Assembly (NCBI GenBank): GCA_947483075.1
Contig: CANKLE010000004.1
Location: forward strand, 62,001-126,000
Reading direction: 5' to 3'
DNA: 64,000 nucleotides
DNA from: Flavobacteriaceae bacterium
GTDB taxonomy: Bacteria > Bacteroidota > Bacteroidia > Flavobacteriales > Flavobacteriaceae
Positions 18,208 to 25,694 of this stretch are shown one piece after another. The notes beneath the pieces were generated by a model. It had not been told where the DNA came from. It saw only the letters and a program-made list of their open reading frames with translations, and made no database searches. Both the position numbers and the translations under genes were made by a program. Numbering within the stretch: the stretch's first letter is position 1; each line of letters begins with the position of its first letter.

Positions 18208-19929
18208 TTAGTGTTTTATCAGTTTTTGTGTATGTATACCGTTTTCACTTTTCAAGTGTAAAACATAGGTGCCTTTTGCCAATGCAGAAGTTTGTACCAG
18301 GGTTGTATTTGACAATAACGAAATGCGCTGCAACAGTTGCCCTTGTAAAGAATAGAGTTCTGCAACCGTGTTTTGGTAGTTTGTACATGTAATTGTAAAC
18401 TGCTCACGCACAGGGTTGGGGTAAATGCTAAAGCTAGTTTGTGCACTCACCTCTTCGGTGCCAAGTAGCCCACCTAATTTGCAAATAAAACTATCGTTTT
18501 GACCCACCGGAGTCATGTTGAATACAGCAGAATCAGGATCAAAGTCTACAGTCGACGCAAAACGACCTGCTACATAAAGGTTGTTACCCATCACTTTTAT
18601 CGATCGTCCGTCTTCATAATTCGTAAAGCCGCCCATACACCTCGCCCATACAAAATTGCCTGATGCGTCTAATTTAGAAACGTAAATATCACCTCCCCCA
18701 ACTGTTTCTAAATCATAAACACCAATCCCTGGATCAAAATCAATAGTTCCTCCTCCTTGAATTTCGCCTGTAGTATAAATATTACCAAAAGTATCAACTG
18801 CAATGGCTTGGCCAAAATCAGCGCCTATACCTCCTAATACTTTTGCCCAAATAAAGTTACCGTCTGCATCCAACTTGAGTACAAAAGTGTCATAAAAACC
18901 AACCGTAGGAACATTATAAACTGCTACTCCTGGATCAAAATCGATTTGTGTATCATTGATATAACAGATATACCCAGTTATGCATACATTTCCTGAAGAA
19001 TCGACAACCAAATCTTTTCCTGCGTCATTCCCGTCCATGCCTATTTTCTTGGCCCAAACAAAATTTCCACTTGCATTTAATTTTAATATAAATATATCTG
19101 CCTCATTGTTGGTAGCCGATAGAGAATACACACCAATACCCGGATCAAAATCGCAGGCCTCTGGACCATGAAATTCACCGGTTGTAAAAACTTCACCAAA
19201 AGTATTAATGGCAATTGAATAAGCCGCTTCATTGCTTGTACCACCCATTGTTTTAGCCCAAATATAATTTCCGGAGGATGATAATTTCAATACAAAAACA
19301 TCTGAAGATCCAGCGCTAGCTATATTAACTACTCCAGTACCCGGATCAAAGTCTACCGTGTTATAAAAATAACCCGTCAGGAAAATTTCACCCGCTAAAT
19401 TGGTGGCAATAGAAGTTCCACGATCGGTATTATTTGATCCTATTTTCTTCGCCCAAACATAATTTCCAACGGTATCAAATTTGGCAATAAACACATCGTT
19501 ATCTCCTGCAGATGTTATATTTACTACTGCAGCACCTGGATCAAAATCAGCGGTCGAAGAAAACCAGCCCGTGAGCACCACTTCACCCGTTGGGGTAATT
19601 GCGATAGAAAAGCCCAAATCGCTGCCTACTCCACCGATACGTTTGGCCCACACCAAATTCCCGGAAGTATCTAATTTGGAAATAAAAATATCATCGAGAC
19701 CTGCAGACGTTAGATTAAAAACACCAGGTCCTGGATCAAAGTCTGCAGTGCCCGAAAAAGCACCAGTGCTGTAAACATTTCCTGTGTTATCTACTGCAAT
19801 AGAATTGCAAGAATCATCACCCGTTCCACCCTGTTGCTTGGCCCATAGTAAGTTTTGTGCATGCGCAGGCAGTTGTCCAAGGAATAAAAAACAAAAAAAG
19901 GGTAGAGTGAATAGCGTATTTTTTTTCAT
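18208..19929 (-). CDS. T9SS-secreted SBBP beta-propeller repeat protein
   Basis: A 573-residue secreted protein. The signal peptide MKKNTLFTLPFFCFLFLGQLPAHAQ is followed by seven repeats of ~50-58 residues, each carrying a DFDPG-type motif and a GN(x)xWAK strand, the SBBP (seven-bladed propeller) pattern. A C-terminal type A sorting domain (about 495-573: FSIYPNPVREQFTITC ... KGTYVLHLKSENG) directs export by T9SS. Function is unknown; such propellers often bind proteins or glycans at the cell surface. The ATG at 19929 is preferred over the track start because the signal peptide starts there. It has its own terminator downstream. Confidence 0.87.
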   Translation of the reverse strand: MKKNTLFTLPFFCFLFLGQLPAHAQNLLWAKQQGGTGDDSCNSIAVDNTGNVYSTGAFSGTADFDPGPGVFNLTSAGLDDIFISKLDTSGNLVWAKRIGGVGSDLGFSIAITPTGEVVLTGWFSSTADFDPGAAVVNITSAGDNDVFIAKFDTVGNYVWAKKIGSNNTDRGTSIATNLAGEIFLTGYFYNTVDFDPGTGVVNIASAGSSDVFVLKLSSSGNYIWAKTMGGTSNEAAYSIAINTFGEVFTTGEFHGPEACDFDPGIGVYSLSATNNEADIFILKLNASGNFVWAKKIGMDGNDAGKDLVVDSSGNVCITGYICYINDTQIDFDPGVAVYNVPTVGFYDTFVLKLDADGNFIWAKVLGGIGADFGQAIAVDTFGNIYTTGEIQGGGTIDFDPGIGVYDLETVGGGDIYVSKLDASGNFVWARCMGGFTNYEDGRSIKVMGNNLYVAGRFASTVDFDPDSAVFNMTPVGQNDSFICKLGGLLGTEEVSAQTSFSIYPNPVREQFTITCTNYQNTVAELYSLQGQLLQRISLLSNTTLVQTSALAKGTYVLHLKSENGIHTQKLIKH

Positions 19930-19978
19930 TTGTGTAAGAGGAATTAGTCTATTTGAATACAATAATTGGGTGTTAAAC

Positions 19979-20010
19979 AAAAAAAACTTGGATAAAAATT
20001 ACCCAAGTTT
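19979..20010 (-). terminator. Rho-independent terminator of the DUF2135-like lipoprotein operon
   Basis: Stem AAACTTGG/CCAAGTTT (19984-19991 with 20003-20010). On the reverse strand it is followed by a T run. It lies 21 nt past the stop of the downstream lipoprotein gene. Confidence 0.75.
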
Positions 20011-20505: not shown

Positions 20506-21714
20506 TTAGTTTTTAATATAAGTCCACGTAGGTGTTGTACCACCTGTAGTAAGTGTACCCGTATGCGATTGTACAATTGTAGAATTGTTCATGACACGCA
20601 CCGTGTAGTTGGCGTTCGGGTTGGAACTCGAACAACTGCTGTAAAATTTCACATAATATTGATAGGTTCCTGCTGGTCCAGTTTGCCAAAATACATTTTC
20701 ACCCGTGCCATTTGATGTGCTGCTCCCGCATTGACAATCTACATCCAATTCTCCGCCTTGGCCTGTTCGGTTGCCATAATAAATCAATGTGCCGTCTGGT
20801 GTTTTAACGTATAAATCCAAATCATATCCGGCAGTGAATTGCAAATTAAAACGCGGATTTCCGGCGCTACCAACCAAACCGCCTCCCGTACCATCGCATT
20901 CTGGTCCTTCATTTGACGGACAAATTGCCAACGTACCACCCCCATCAGGCGTAGTAAAACTACCTGTGCTTACTTGGCCATTTTCCCAATTTACGGTATA
21001 GGTATGTTGGGTGTTTTTGGGTAAAATATACTGCACAGTACTGCAATCTGTAAATGCTACCGGGTTTCCATCAAGACCAACTAAGGTTCCAGAATTACAG
21101 AAAATTTGAGATTGTATGTTATCATAATTAAATGGAATGGTGTTCCATAAAGCATAATAGGAATCACATCGCCCACCTGGATGATAAAATTTATTTAAAC
21201 CACTAAACGAGACACCATCTACGGTCACTGTAGCTTTACAAGATTCGTCATGCGTAAAAATCACTGAGGAATTCAATAGATTTTCCCACCCACCAGTGGT
21301 TTGTAATTCGGGCACATCACCCCCAACGGTCATGGAAGAGCCATCGGGATTGGTTCCGCTCAAATAAATAGAACGTGTAGTCGTATCAATTGAACCAGTG
21401 ATATTGGTAATATTCGCAAATGCTCCTTCCGTTTGAGTAATATTGATGGCATAACTATTTCCTTGCTTTACAGAGATGCCTCTCATATTACCCGAAAGTA
21501 AATTTAAATCGGTTGATCCATTGGCGGCAATCGTAATATACCCTTCTAAAGGTGAGGTTGTCCCGTTGTTGTACAAGGTGCCTGTGAAGATTCCCGAAAA
21601 TTCAAAATCGGATAAAGAAGGTGTTTTTGCTCCGTCGTCCTTGCTACAACTCACACAGAGCAATAAAATACCGACATAGAAAAAGTGTACGGATTTAGTG
21701 AATAGTGTTTTCAT
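20506..21714 (-). CDS. Lipoprotein with C-terminal YfaP/DUF2135-like domain, long paralogue
   Basis: A 402-residue lipoprotein (lipobox LLLCVSC, Cys 23). Residues about 30-150 form a beta-rich region (SGIFTGTLYNNG ... MTVGGDVPEL). About 150-270 is a Cys-containing region of unknown fold (ESCKATVTVDG, HPGGRCDSYY). The C-terminal ~120 residues repeat the domain of the neighbouring short lipoprotein (DLDLYVKTPDGTLIYYGNR, LDVDCQCGS, VFW, GTYQYYVKFYSSCSSS). The track start is a TTG; ATG 21714 is used. A NarL-type palindrome and promoter lie directly upstream, linking it to the adjacent two-component system. Its predicted leader is only about 7 nt. Confidence 0.72.
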   Translation of the reverse strand: MKTLFTKSVHFFYVGILLLCVSCSKDDGAKTPSLSDFEFSGIFTGTLYNNGTTSPLEGYITIAANGSTDLNLLSGNMRGISVKQGNSYAINITQTEGAFANITNITGSIDTTTRSIYLSGTNPDGSSMTVGGDVPELQTTGGWENLLNSSVIFTHDESCKATVTVDGVSFSGLNKFYHPGGRCDSYYALWNTIPFNYDNIQSQIFCNSGTLVGLDGNPVAFTDCSTVQYILPKNTQHTYTVNWENGQVSTGSFTTPDGGGTLAICPSNEGPECDGTGGGLVGSAGNPRFNLQFTAGYDLDLYVKTPDGTLIYYGNRTGQGGELDVDCQCGSSTSNGTGENVFWQTGPAGTYQYYVKFYSSCSSSNPNANYTVRVMNNSTIVQSHTGTLTTGGTTPTWTYIKN

Positions 21715-21726
21715 TAGTTTTTTTAA

Positions 21727-21757
21727 CAAATAAACTGCATACTACAACTTATGTCAA
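21727..21757 (-). promoter_or_regulatory. Promoter of the lipoprotein operon (TTG-N20-TTTATTTG)
   Basis: On the reverse strand the -33 TTG begins at 21757, the base after the palindrome. The -7 TTTATTTG spans 21734-21727 (one mismatch to TAnnTTTG). The start codon is only 13 nt beyond the -7 box. Confidence 0.6.
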
Positions 21758-21773
21758 TACCCATTTGTGGGTA
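21758..21773. promoter_or_regulatory. NarL-like 7-2-7 operator TACCCATTTGTGGGTA (lipoprotein operon)
   Basis: Inverted heptamers TACCCAT and TACCCAC (reverse strand) are separated by 2 nt, the 7-2-7 arrangement bound by NarL-type regulators (TACYYMT). The -7 octamer of the lipoprotein promoter starts exactly 23 nt after it. A one-base variant with the same spacing precedes the response regulator gene. Confidence 0.65.
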
Positions 21774-21789
21774 AATCACAATGATACTA

Positions 21790-23565
21790 TTATTTTATTG
21801 GGAGATTAATTTGCACGACAGTGCCCTGATTTAAAGTACTGGTAATTTCAAAACTGCCTCGATAATTCTGGATGCGTTTTTGGCTATTCTCTAACCCAAA
21901 CCCAAAAGGCACCTGGTCGGTATTAAACCCTACCCCATCATCAGTAATTTGAACTAAATAATGTGTCGGATATGCATAAAATTCAACCATTACAGCTTGA
22001 GCTTTTCCGTGATTGCTCGCGTTATTAATGAGTTCTAAGACAATTAAATACACATCATAAATCCATTCCTCTTCAATTATCTCGGGAAAATTGTAAGTAT
22101 ATAGCTCAATTTTAGGAATTGCCACGGTGCGCGAACGGCTCTCAATTTGGTTATGTAAACTGGCATATAACGCGCCTTCATCGAGCGATTTGGGAAGAAT
22201 TTGGTGGGAAATCATACGAATATCATTTGACAATTCGGCCATGGAATCATTAACCTGTTGATATTGCTTAAGTTGGATGAGTTGCCTGATGTAGGCCAAT
22301 TGACTGCCAATATTATCGTGAATTAAATTGGCAATAGAGCGGCGTTCACGCACTTGGGTTTGCGAGATGACTTGGATGGTTTTGTAGCGTTCGTCTATTA
22401 AATCGATAACCAGTTGCGAGTTCTCTTTATGAGTATTCATGTATTTGTTGGTGAGGATATACCCAAACAATAGTGCCTCATACAAAAAGACAAAGACCAA
22501 CAAATTCTCCGGAAAACTGGCTTGTATCACTTTAAAAGATCGCAATAAAATGGCATGACCCCATAACAAATGAGGCCAAAAAGTGAGCAACATTAAATAA
22601 GACGGTTTAGATTCGTAGCGAATGTTGCGAAAAACGGCAAATACCATATAAATAAAACTCAACGTGATGGCAGAAAAGACCAAGTAAAAACAAATCTTTA
22701 AAATAAAATTCCATTCTAATGCATAGAAAAAAAGAGAGAGAAAAATAATTGATGTCGTTACCCACAAACTCAATAGTATGTGTCTAAATGGCTTGGGTTG
22801 GTAATTTTTTAAATTGGTAAAACTGCAAATAAGCCTCGTTAAGATCACAAACCAAATTGTTGAGGCGTAAATGTGCAGCTCACTAAAGTATAAGAAATGA
22901 GGAAACAGGGTGAATTTGGCATAATTAGAATAACTCACTATGTACAGAATCGAGCAAATTGAATACAAGGTGTAGTAAAAGTAAACCGGTCGTTTAGTGA
23001 TTCGATATAAGCTAATATTGAGCAACATTAAAATTAATATAACCCCTATAAATACCGAGATTACAATCAATTTAGCATTCGAAAGTTTTACCAACTCGGT
23101 TACCGATTCTAGACCATACGAAAACTCAAAAAAAGAAGTGGTTTTCTTTAATTTCACCAAACAGCTTTTTTGTTCCTTAGCTTTCAGCTCAAAAACAAAC
23201 GAATGATAAGATAAAAACTGAGCTTCATTGGCAGTTCGATCGCCCAGCATTCGGATGCGATTGGGTTCGTAACACACCAAACTGTCTATGTTGTTGTTGT
23301 AGAAGGATAATCCGAAGCGTTGGGTATGTGCGGTGGTATTGGTAAACCTAAAACGGCACCAAACCGTGGCGTTTTCATTGTAACCAATATTGATGTGCCG
23401 ATCTGCTGGCAACGTTTTCCAAGCCGATTTAGGTAAATTTGTTGGCGTATATTGCGAGGTAGAATCAACCAAATACTGCGCTGACTGGCGCACAGCAGGA
23501 AAATCAAATTGCGCTTGAGCAGTGAAACTCAGTATGAGTAAACTAAGAAAATAAATTATTCTCAT
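21790..23565 (-). CDS. Sensor histidine kinase, 7TM-DISM type with HisKA_3/NarX-like core
   Basis: A 591-residue sensor kinase. The signal peptide MRIIYFLSLLILSFTAQAQ precedes a periplasmic beta-sandwich (about 20-165, 7TMR-DISMED2-like). Seven hydrophobic helices follow (about 170-375) and a short coiled coil. The transmitter has the phospho-acceptor in RRSIANLIHDNIGSQ (His about 416), N-box ELINNASNHG, G1 DDGVGFN and G2 GFGLENSQKRI. All catalytic motifs look intact. The track start is a TTG; the ATG at 23565 overlaps the regulator gene by 23 nt, so translation is coupled. The periplasmic ligand is unknown. Confidence 0.88.
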   Translation of the reverse strand: MRIIYFLSLLILSFTAQAQFDFPAVRQSAQYLVDSTSQYTPTNLPKSAWKTLPADRHINIGYNENATVWCRFRFTNTTAHTQRFGLSFYNNNIDSLVCYEPNRIRMLGDRTANEAQFLSYHSFVFELKAKEQKSCLVKLKKTTSFFEFSYGLESVTELVKLSNAKLIVISVFIGVILILMLLNISLYRITKRPVYFYYTLYSICSILYIVSYSNYAKFTLFPHFLYFSELHIYASTIWFVILTRLICSFTNLKNYQPKPFRHILLSLWVTTSIIFLSLFFYALEWNFILKICFYLVFSAITLSFIYMVFAVFRNIRYESKPSYLMLLTFWPHLLWGHAILLRSFKVIQASFPENLLVFVFLYEALLFGYILTNKYMNTHKENSQLVIDLIDERYKTIQVISQTQVRERRSIANLIHDNIGSQLAYIRQLIQLKQYQQVNDSMAELSNDIRMISHQILPKSLDEGALYASLHNQIESRSRTVAIPKIELYTYNFPEIIEEEWIYDVYLIVLELINNASNHGKAQAVMVEFYAYPTHYLVQITDDGVGFNTDQVPFGFGLENSQKRIQNYRGSFEITSTLNQGTVVQINLPIK

Positions 23566-24175
23566 GCGCAAATTTAATGAGCGAACTGCTGTTGGATATT
23601 TCTAGCTTTTTGTTGATGTTTTTGCGGTGTGTATCTACGGTGGTTTTACTGATAAATAATTCGGAAGCAATTTCCTTGCTGGTTTTTCCTTCAATAATCA
23701 ACCGAATGATTTGTTTTTCTTGGGCCGAAAGAGAAAATTTCTTGAGTTGGGCTTTGTCCTTGTTGTCAAAATCGGGGATGCCTTTTTTGGTAGTACTGGC
23801 CTGGTAAAAGTCGTGTGATTTAGACTCAATTACTGCTATCAATTCTTCAATGGGGGTTTCTTTGGGCAAAAATGCATCTACACCAAGCCGAGCAGCTTTA
23901 TTTACCAGAAATTCCTCAAAATAGGCCGAGAGAATAATGACTTTGGCTTTGGGATGAATTTTTTTGAACTGCTGAATCAATTGAAAACCGTCGCGTTCGT
24001 CAATATTCAAATCACAGAGAAACACATCTACCGCTGCCGATGTAAAGTAATTTTGGCATTGATCGGAATCGCTAAACAAGGTGATGTCGTAATCCGTGCC
24101 AAATTTCTTTAACACCTCTGACAGTCCATTCAAAAACAGCAAATGATCATCACAAATAAGAATTTTTTTATGCAT
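23543..24175 (-). CDS. LuxR/NarL-family response regulator
   Basis: A 210-residue response regulator. The receiver domain (1-120) has the acidic pair DD at 9-10, phospho-acceptor Asp 55 in FLCDLNIDE, the switch Ser in IILSAYF and the Lys in FLPKE. The GerE-type HTH (about 145-205) reads LSAQEKQIIRLIIEGKTSKEIASELFISKTTVDTHRKNI. It is the first gene of a two-gene operon with the kinase. A 7-2-7 palindrome followed by a consensus promoter lies upstream, which suggests autoregulation. Confidence 0.92.
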   Translation of the reverse strand: MHKKILICDDHLLFLNGLSEVLKKFGTDYDITLFSDSDQCQNYFTSAAVDVFLCDLNIDERDGFQLIQQFKKIHPKAKVIILSAYFEEFLVNKAARLGVDAFLPKETPIEELIAVIESKSHDFYQASTTKKGIPDFDNKDKAQLKKFSLSAQEKQIIRLIIEGKTSKEIASELFISKTTVDTHRKNINKKLEISNSSSLIKFAHENNLFS

Positions 24176-24286
24176 CAGGTGTAGTTTTAGAATTACATTG
24201 GCTATAGCATCGTACTAATTAACTTTCTAGCCAAAAAGCAGAACTAAAGTAGGCAAATAAAGTTGATTTGAAGAAATAACGAAATA

Positions 24287-24317
24287 CAAACATACTCGCA
24301 AATAAAAAGCAAACAAA
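24287..24317 (-). promoter_or_regulatory. Promoter of the two-component operon (TTTG-N19-TATGTTTG)
   Basis: On the reverse strand a -33 TTTG (24317-24314) immediately follows the palindrome, and a perfect -7 TATGTTTG spans 24294-24287. It predicts a leader of about 105 nt before the regulator ATG at 24175. Confidence 0.65.
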
Positions 24318-24333
24318 TACCTATTTGTGGGTA
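24318..24333. promoter_or_regulatory. NarL-like 7-2-7 operator TACCTATTTGTGGGTA (two-component operon)
   Basis: It differs from the site at 21758-21773 at one of 16 positions; TACCTAT matches the TACYYMT heptamer. The distance from the palindrome to the -7 box is 23 nt, the same as at the lipoprotein promoter. Confidence 0.65.
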
Positions 24334-24344
24334 TATTACCCCAT

Positions 24345-24370
24345 AAAAAAAGCCTCCCAGTGGGAGGCTT
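24345..24370 (-). terminator. Rho-independent terminator of outer-membrane protein gene 1
   Basis: Hairpin AGCCTCCCAGTGGGAGGCT (24351-24369) flanked by A6 on the left and T on the right, so it can work on both strands. An identical 19-bp hairpin ends the next upstream gene. Confidence 0.85.
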
Positions 24371-24387
24371 TTTAAAGATATATTCGA

Positions 24388-24927
24388 TTAGAATTTGTAA
24401 CCAAAAGAAACAGAAATCACATTATTTTTATACGTTTCATAAGTAGTGTCTTTATTTAAAGCCGACATACCCATATTGTAACGCAAGTCTAACATCATGT
24501 TTTCGTTTAAATCATACCCAGCGCCTAAATTCAAACCAAAATCAGTAGTGTTGTATCCGTCTTTTACATCAGCTCCACCTTCTTTAGCCGACATTAACAA
24601 ACCAATTTGAGGTCCCGCTTGAATGTTGAACGTTTCACCTACATAATACTTGGCCATTACAGGGATATTAATGTACGTTAAGTCTATAGATCCACCTGTA
24701 TAAGTACATCCTTGATTCGAGTACACCAACTCCGGTTGGATGGCAAATTTGTCAGAGGCTTTGAACTCTAATAAACCACCAATGTGAAATGTGGTTTTGG
24801 CTGAAGTTCCAGTAGCTCCTGCAATAGAAGCAGAATTGATTCCCCCTTTAACTCCAAATTTCATGTCTTGCGCGTTTGCAAAACCGAATGCACCTACTGC
24901 GATAGCAGCTAAAATAATTTTTTTCAT
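24388..24927 (-). CDS. Outer-membrane beta-barrel protein (PorT-like family), paralogue 1
   Basis: A 179-residue barrel protein with signal peptide MKKIILAAIAVGAFGFANAQ. The mature part begins MKFGVKGGINSASI, contains FAIQPELVYSNQG, INIPVMAKYYVGETFNIQAGPQIGLL and LNLGAGYDLNENMMLDLRYNMGMS, and ends VISVSFGYKF with the C-terminal Phe used by the BAM machinery. This is the bacteroidetal outer-membrane beta-barrel (OMP_b-brl_2/PorT-like) pattern. Its signal peptide, C-terminus and terminator closely match those of the next gene, which suggests tandem duplication. Ligand or role unknown. Confidence 0.82.
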   Translation of the reverse strand: MKKIILAAIAVGAFGFANAQDMKFGVKGGINSASIAGATGTSAKTTFHIGGLLEFKASDKFAIQPELVYSNQGCTYTGGSIDLTYINIPVMAKYYVGETFNIQAGPQIGLLMSAKEGGADVKDGYNTTDFGLNLGAGYDLNENMMLDLRYNMGMSALNKDTTYETYKNNVISVSFGYKF

Positions 24928-25022: not shown

Positions 25023-25047
25023 AAAAAAAGCCTCCCAGTGGGAGGCT
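25023..25047 (-). terminator. Rho-independent terminator of outer-membrane protein gene 2
   Basis: AGCCTCCCAGTGGGAGGCT (25029-25047) is identical to the hairpin at 24351-24369; on the reverse strand it is followed by T7. Confidence 0.85.
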
Positions 25048-25070
25048 TTCTTATGCAATAATAAATTCGA

Positions 25071-25694
25071 TTAGAATTTGTAGATCAAACCAACTTTAGC
25101 AGCAGCAAAAATGTTGTTGTATTGTTTGTTGATGTCCAAGGTCATAGAAGTAGTTTTTACGTCGCCAGTTTTTGAAGTATTGTAGCTAAACACATCGTTC
25201 AAACCAAAATCTACAGCCCATTTAGAAGTAATCCAGTAGTTTACTCCAATACCAGCACCTAAACCAAGTGTAGCAGTTTTTTCTGCACCATTACCACCGT
25301 TGTCATTTGAACCAGAAACTAATCCAAAGTTTGTATAGGTTTTGAAACGCTCACCTACATTTAAAAAGTAGTATCTACCACCAATTTTGATGTTAGTCTG
25401 TTTTGATTTATCAGCATCTACTGCAGGAGTTGTTCCAACAGCTGGTTTTGCAGCTAAATCATTTGCAGTTAATTCTAACCCAACTGTCAAAGCCAAATTG
25501 TCAGATAAAAAATAACCAAATTCTGGAGCAATTGTGTTTGAAGTAGATTTTACACCTCCATTATCTTCAGAAAAATAGTGAATTGTACCACCTAAATACA
25601 TGTCTCCTGAGGCGAAACCATAAGACTCTTTGTCTTGCGCGTTAGCAAAACCGAATGCACATACTGCAATTGCAGATAAAATAATTTTTTTCAT
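25071..25694 (-). CDS. Outer-membrane beta-barrel protein, paralogue 2
   Basis: A 207-residue barrel with signal peptide MKKIILSAIAVCAFGFANAQ, nearly identical to that of the neighbouring gene. Strand-like segments include IAPEFGYFLSDNLALTVGLEL, IKIGGRYYFL and LGAGIGVNYWITSKWAVDFGL, ending in AAKVGLIYKF. It belongs to the generic bacteroidetal 8-stranded barrel class (OMP_b-brl). The barrel sequences diverge more than the signal peptides and 3' ends, so this is an old or recombined duplication. A TACTTTTG -7 box lies 29 nt upstream and tandem 12-mers lie further upstream. Confidence 0.8.
   Translation of the reverse strand: MKKIILSAIAVCAFGFANAQDKESYGFASGDMYLGGTIHYFSEDNGGVKSTSNTIAPEFGYFLSDNLALTVGLELTANDLAAKPAVGTTPAVDADKSKQTNIKIGGRYYFLNVGERFKTYTNFGLVSGSNDNGGNGAEKTATLGLGAGIGVNYWITSKWAVDFGLNDVFSYNTSKTGDVKTTSMTLDINKQYNNIFAAAKVGLIYKF

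Follow-up and report, generated by a model that had tools for sequence, protein, structure and literature searches.

A probable two-component regulon with NarL-like operators in a Flavobacteriaceae genome

Described systems and their likeness to the locus

NarL favours inverted heptamers with a spacing of 2 bp, as in the engineered site TACCCCTAAAGGGGTA, and its 7-2-7 sites at −40 to −49 (napF) and −38 to −47 (yeaR) upstream of the transcription starts activate (PMC4549865). For Bacteroidota promoters the sigma-A −7 box of F. psychrophilum was mapped to −12 to −5; the main text of that start-site paper mentions neither a palindrome nor a LuxR regulator (PMC9723704). Operators of LuxR-type response regulators in Bacteroidota seem to be poorly known, and a limited search of the open-access literature found no published description of the present operator. 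The locus is very likely a two-component regulon with a NarL-like operator; the operator kind itself is known.

We analysed a stretch of 64,000 nucleotides from a Flavobacteriaceae genome, here called the window. Its two sites resemble the E. coli NarL operators of napF and yeaR in that they are 16 bp long, with inverted heptamers on either side of a 2-bp centre, are centred near −43 and go together with a GerE-domain response regulator. As in NarL sites, the heptamers TACCCAT and TACCTAT conform to TACYYMT. Unlike E. coli NarL, the system belongs to another phylum, works with a sigma-A (−33/−7) promoter and a 7TMR-DISM sensor, and has different targets and different recognition-helix residues. 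The base-contact residues K188 and V189 of NarL presumably correspond to D and T in the window regulator, and because these residues differ, NarL-like recognition is proposed here by analogy. VraR and EvgA-type response regulators, which have the closest solved structures, are similar over the full length (REC and GerE) but differ in kinase class and gene neighbourhood. The window sites share their −7 boxes and the TTG at −33 with Bacteroidota sigma-A promoters (−33 TTTG / −7 TAnnTTTG), from which they differ by a putative activator palindrome at −51 to −36 with fixed spacing.

Palindromes, promoters and the encoded two-component system

The features are listed in Table 1. On the minus strand they follow each other in the order palindrome 2, response regulator, sensor kinase, palindrome 1, lipoprotein 1 and lipoprotein 2. 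The original prediction had placed two palindromes with a single-base difference at these positions, one before the lipoprotein genes and one before the response-regulator/kinase genes, with the regulator gene beside both. Coordinates, sequences and placement were all found to be correct, and the regulator encoded between the palindromes is a response regulator of the REC+GerE type.

Table 1. Coordinates of the palindromes, promoter elements and genes in the window.
Feature	Positions	Strand	Remarks
Lipoprotein 2, 153 aa	20031..20492	-	lipobox ...VISC-SSD; beta-sandwich-like model
Lipoprotein 1, 402 aa	20506..21714	-	lipobox ...VSC-SKDD; C-terminal domain common to lipoprotein 2
-7 box TTTATTTG	21727..21734	-	5/6 of TAnnTTTG (A of TA absent); begins 23 nt past palindrome 1
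-33 region TTG	21755..21757	-	abuts palindrome 1; TTGAC kept in relatives
Palindrome 1 TACCCATTTGTGGGTA (7-2-7)	21758..21773	.	upstream of lipoprotein genes; about -51 to -36 of predicted promoter; kept in orthologous promoters
Sensor histidine kinase, 7TMR-DISMED2 + 7TMR-DISM_7TM + HATPase_c	21790..23571	-	H-box ERRSIANLIHD
NarL/FixJ-type response regulator (Response_reg + GerE), 210 aa	23543..24175	-	recognition helix SKTTVDTHRKNI
-7 box TATGTTTG	24287..24294	-	6/6 of TAnnTTTG; begins 23 nt past palindrome 2
Palindrome 2 TACCTATTTGTGGGTA	24318..24333	.	upstream of response-regulator/kinase operon

Both domains of the regulator scored above their cut-offs (PF00072 with E 1.2e-20, PF00196 with E 1.6e-18), giving a receiver followed by a GerE HTH, and the receiver residues D9, D10, D55 and K105 are all present at the sequence level. 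The best full-length PDB matches were 5hev, 7ve6, 4gvp and 5f64, with VraR, EvgA and NarL among the matches. The regulator is not NarL itself, as it reached 70.7 bits against the NF007935 cut-off of 250. The kinase has an intact H-box and matches PF07696, PF07695 and PF02518 above cut-off, the domains that identify a 7TMR-DISM sensor kinase. Four GerE proteins are encoded in the genome: a pair of short response regulators, and two more within open frames of ∼950 aa.

The palindrome is not abundant at random genomic positions. A search of the whole genome (2,396,807 bases) for the strict form TACCYAN4TRGGTA returned two copies, namely palindromes 1 and 2, compared to an expected count of 0.24 under a dinucleotide model. 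In the 64-kb window two matches to the strict form with at most one mismatch were reached in 2/100 shuffles. For the loose form with up to three mismatches, 25/100 shuffles of the window contained at least two matches, and the pair is unremarkable at that stringency. When palindrome and −7 box were searched together and three mismatches were allowed, the next-best places in the genome carried three mismatches. The 16-bp layout agrees with the 7-2-7 array of NarL that had been proposed for the sites: in TACCCAT-TT-GTGGGTA one arm fits TACYYMT at 7/7 positions and the other arm (TACCCAC) at 6/7, and both arms fit in the related genomes G132 and G030 (TACCCATTTATGGGTA and TACCCATTAATGGGTA).

The two promoters have the identical geometry that had been claimed for them. 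On the minus strand TTGAC lies directly 3′ of palindrome 1 and TTTG directly 3′ of palindrome 2, and the −7 octamer follows at exactly 23 nt in both cases. If the −7 box occupies −12 to −5, as mapped in F. psychrophilum (PMC9723704), this gap puts the palindromes at −51 to −36 with their centre at −43.5; with the same placement of the −7 box a gap of 22 nt would move the centre to −42.5. A site that adjoins or overlaps the −35/−33 element at fixed spacing is one mark of a class II-type activator promoter, and this is the arrangement found here. The imperfect −7 box of the window lipoprotein promoter would fit activator dependence, short of proof. A scan for sigma-70-type promoters gave nothing above shuffles, as expected for Bacteroidota.

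Occurrence in related genomes

A close kinase was found in 8/400 genomes of the same genus, the window genome included. In the relatives that bear the palindrome the identity of the kinase ranges from 39 to 77% (G132 77%, G167 76%, G283 72%, G030 39%). In G132 the palindrome precedes lipoprotein 1, the regulator and an OMP gene downstream of lipoprotein 2, and all three strict sites of the genome are in the kinase cluster. The same is true for all four strict sites of G167, which stand before genes non-homologous to the window lipoproteins. The non-homologous genes behind the cluster sites of these two genomes encode a 617-aa Fib_succ_major lipoprotein, a 554-aa protein and an OMP, and the pattern suggests that the site tracks the regulator rather than the downstream gene. 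G283 has a palindrome before lipoprotein 1. G030 has both palindromes at the same places as the window despite its 39% kinase identity; the −7 box of its regulator promoter is weak (4/6). In G167 the regulator and a divergently oriented lipoprotein gene are separated by a palindrome (L117:10265-10280) with plausible −7 boxes on both sides, and this putative operator could serve both directions.

Comparison of the orthologous loci showed that the palindrome recurs before the transcription units of the cluster while the flanks have diverged. Across the lipoprotein promoters of the window, G132 and G283 the half-sites are 100% identical, and the 40 bp upstream are 28–65% identical. For the regulator promoters of the window, G132 and G030 the half-sites are 92–100% identical compared to 25–80% upstream. 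Among the tabulated clade sites 16/18 have a −7 box of 5 or 6/6 at 22–24 nt, counted on one strand, where random positions give ∼3%. Loss of the sites alongside a retained regulator and retained lipoproteins was seen in none of the relatives; G132 and G283, both of which retain the lipoproteins, also retain the site.

Three genomes (G001, G230 and G391) have no site upstream of the regulator, though it is 57–59% identical and its recognition helix is nearly identical. G391 has a palindrome downstream of the kinase, two sites of G001 are at other places, in front of genes for likely secreted proteins, and no exact site occurs anywhere in the 92%-complete assembly of G230. Regulator and site are therefore not strictly coupled, and the missing upstream sites together with the relocated sites of G001 indicate that autoregulation varies and that targets move.

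To survey the spacing across the genus we left the gap between palindrome and TAnnTTTG free over 10–38 nt (29 lengths) in 400 genomes. The 84 matches comprised 48 with a gap of 23 nt, 23 with one of 22 nt and 13 across the other 27 lengths; with near-duplicates removed, 52/65 were located at 22–23 nt (P ∼3e-48 under a uniform model). Promoter-type sites were present in 51/400 genomes. Across the phylum (248 genomes) 13 of 19 further matches had a gap of 22 or 23 nt. GerE genes were found within 5 kb of 22/60 sites compared to 1/40 control regions on the same contigs (Fisher p = 2.6e-5), and the response-regulator-type proteins near the sites have the common recognition helix [SG]K.TV[DN]THRKNI. 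On these motif matches the palindrome class evidently serves several LuxR-type regulators from related genomes besides the local one. Heuristically predicted signal peptides were weakly enriched among the genes downstream of sites (26/66 versus 76/310, p = 0.02). Exact-site pairs in G040 were dropped, as they are inside repeats of coding genes, and the sites at L097, L100 and L102 were taken as chance occurrences because they are located in coding sequence.

We consider it probable that these promoters represent a general Bacteroidota class of LuxR/NarL-type activator promoters, in which a gap of 22–23 nt separates TACCYA-N4-TRGGTA from the TAnnTTTG −7 box downstream of it. Many paralogous regulators that share the helix [SG]K.TVDTHRKNI would use this class to control themselves and adjacent genes for surface proteins, and the central four bases would perhaps discriminate between them. 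The transferable result is the operator with its spacing rule, probably a general one for LuxR-type regulators of Bacteroidota. It would make the regulons of many uncharacterised sensor/regulator pairs predictable from sequence, and it offers a direct test of activator action on the unusual −33/−7 promoters of this phylum.

Several other loci were noted during the survey. G016 has two LuxR-regulator loci, L093 (4190, 11785) and L094 (7293, 10180), each with an identical pair of palindromes; their centres, CTTC and CAAG, are locus-specific and hint at specificity by the central bases. A central-base specificity code was left as an idea, since the centres are mixed in the clade of the window itself. 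Proteins of 69–76 aa with little beyond the GerE domain are encoded at L167:4809-5018, L168:4705-4914 and L169:5382-5612. Their promoters are of the TACCTA type with a −7 box ending ∼44 nt before the start, which suggests that they are putative autoregulated minimal LuxR proteins. At L101, L163, L166, L187 and L189 one operon type recurs, made up of genes for a small protein (M..YDVKGILLEGKKAVIAV...), a kinase and a response regulator; close to its first gene is a palindrome with a gap of 22 or 23 nt.

Proposed regulation and neighbouring genes

The palindromes are very likely the operators of the response regulator encoded between them, which would activate its own operon and the adjoining surface-lipoprotein genes. 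The membrane kinase of the 7TMR-DISM type would sense a signal and phosphorylate the regulator. A dimer of the regulator would then occupy the 7-2-7 palindrome, roughly from −51 to −36, beside sigma-A at the −33/−7 promoter, and activate its own operon through palindrome 2 and the lipoprotein genes through palindrome 1. On the simplest reading the local regulator, once phosphorylated, would activate in a class II-like manner; within this reading we infer the binding of the regulator, activation over repression, the transcription starts and the signal. In the window genome the regulon appears to consist of just the two promoters behind palindromes 1 and 2. The original prediction of autoregulation plus lipoprotein activation gains support from the rarity of the sites, their geometry and the conserved footprint; its autoregulatory part would have to be read as dependent on lineage, given the three relatives that lack a site upstream of the regulator.

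The local regulator might also act on these operators as a repressor that sits over the −33 element and blocks sigma-A; the kinase signal would then relieve or strengthen the repression. We regard this as unlikely. The palindrome does abut the −33 element, a position used by many repressing regulators, and the consensus −7 box of the regulator promoter might manage without an activator. However, the palindrome stops just upstream of −33 and leaves the −7 box and the start uncovered, the −7 boxes of the lipoprotein promoters are weakened, and a spacing held at 22–23 nt throughout the genus is typical of activators that contact the polymerase and needless for a repressor. At the equivalent position of napF and yeaR NarL activates (PMC4549865). 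It is slightly less probable still that another transcription factor binds the palindromes and that the nearby two-component system is incidental or itself under the control of that factor. Promoter-type sites are found in far more genomes of the genus than the kinase (51/400 versus 8/400), so other proteins bind such sequences, and the second short GerE response regulator of the genome is encoded at C16. Yet the region around the C16 regulator contained no palindrome of this kind, even at three mismatches, and every site of the window genome, G132 and G167 belongs to the kinase locus. The regulators near sites are LuxR-type, and those of the response-regulator kind have the helix given above.

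Chance matches or structural elements without a regulator, such as transcript hairpins or repeats, are a very improbable explanation of the palindromes. Two matches per 64-kb window are not unusual when three mismatches are tolerated, but the sites are scarce genome-wide, their footprint is kept amid diverged flanks and they keep the 22–23-nt spacing to the −7 box. Furthermore the palindromes are upstream of the predicted transcription starts and thus outside the transcripts that they precede.

For lipoprotein 1 the open reading frame list gave a TTG start at 21729. We consider the ATG at 21714 the likelier start; it gives MKTLFTKS...LLCVSCSKDD with a lipobox. With this ATG, and the −7 box positioned as in F. 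psychrophilum, the predicted 5′ leader would be ∼8 nt long. The SKDD after the cysteine region presumably resembles the surface-export signal of flavobacterial lipoproteins. Lipoprotein 2 and the C-terminal domain of lipoprotein 1 share ∼52% identity, and neither lipoprotein matched any Pfam or NCBIfam family. The model of the domain has modest confidence (pLDDT 63.7); its best fold match, DUF4425, had an E value of 1.4e-3 on this model and was not relied on.

The gene downstream of lipoprotein 2 (18208-19980) codes for an SBBP beta-propeller protein bearing a sorting tail for type IX secretion, and it may be in the same transcript as the lipoproteins. On the other side of the locus a hairpin, GCCTCCCAGTGGGAGGC, occurs near 24346-24372, just upstream of palindrome 2, and again at 25024-25050. 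The adjoining genes at 24388-24927 and 25071-25694 encode outer-membrane proteins with almost identical signal peptides.
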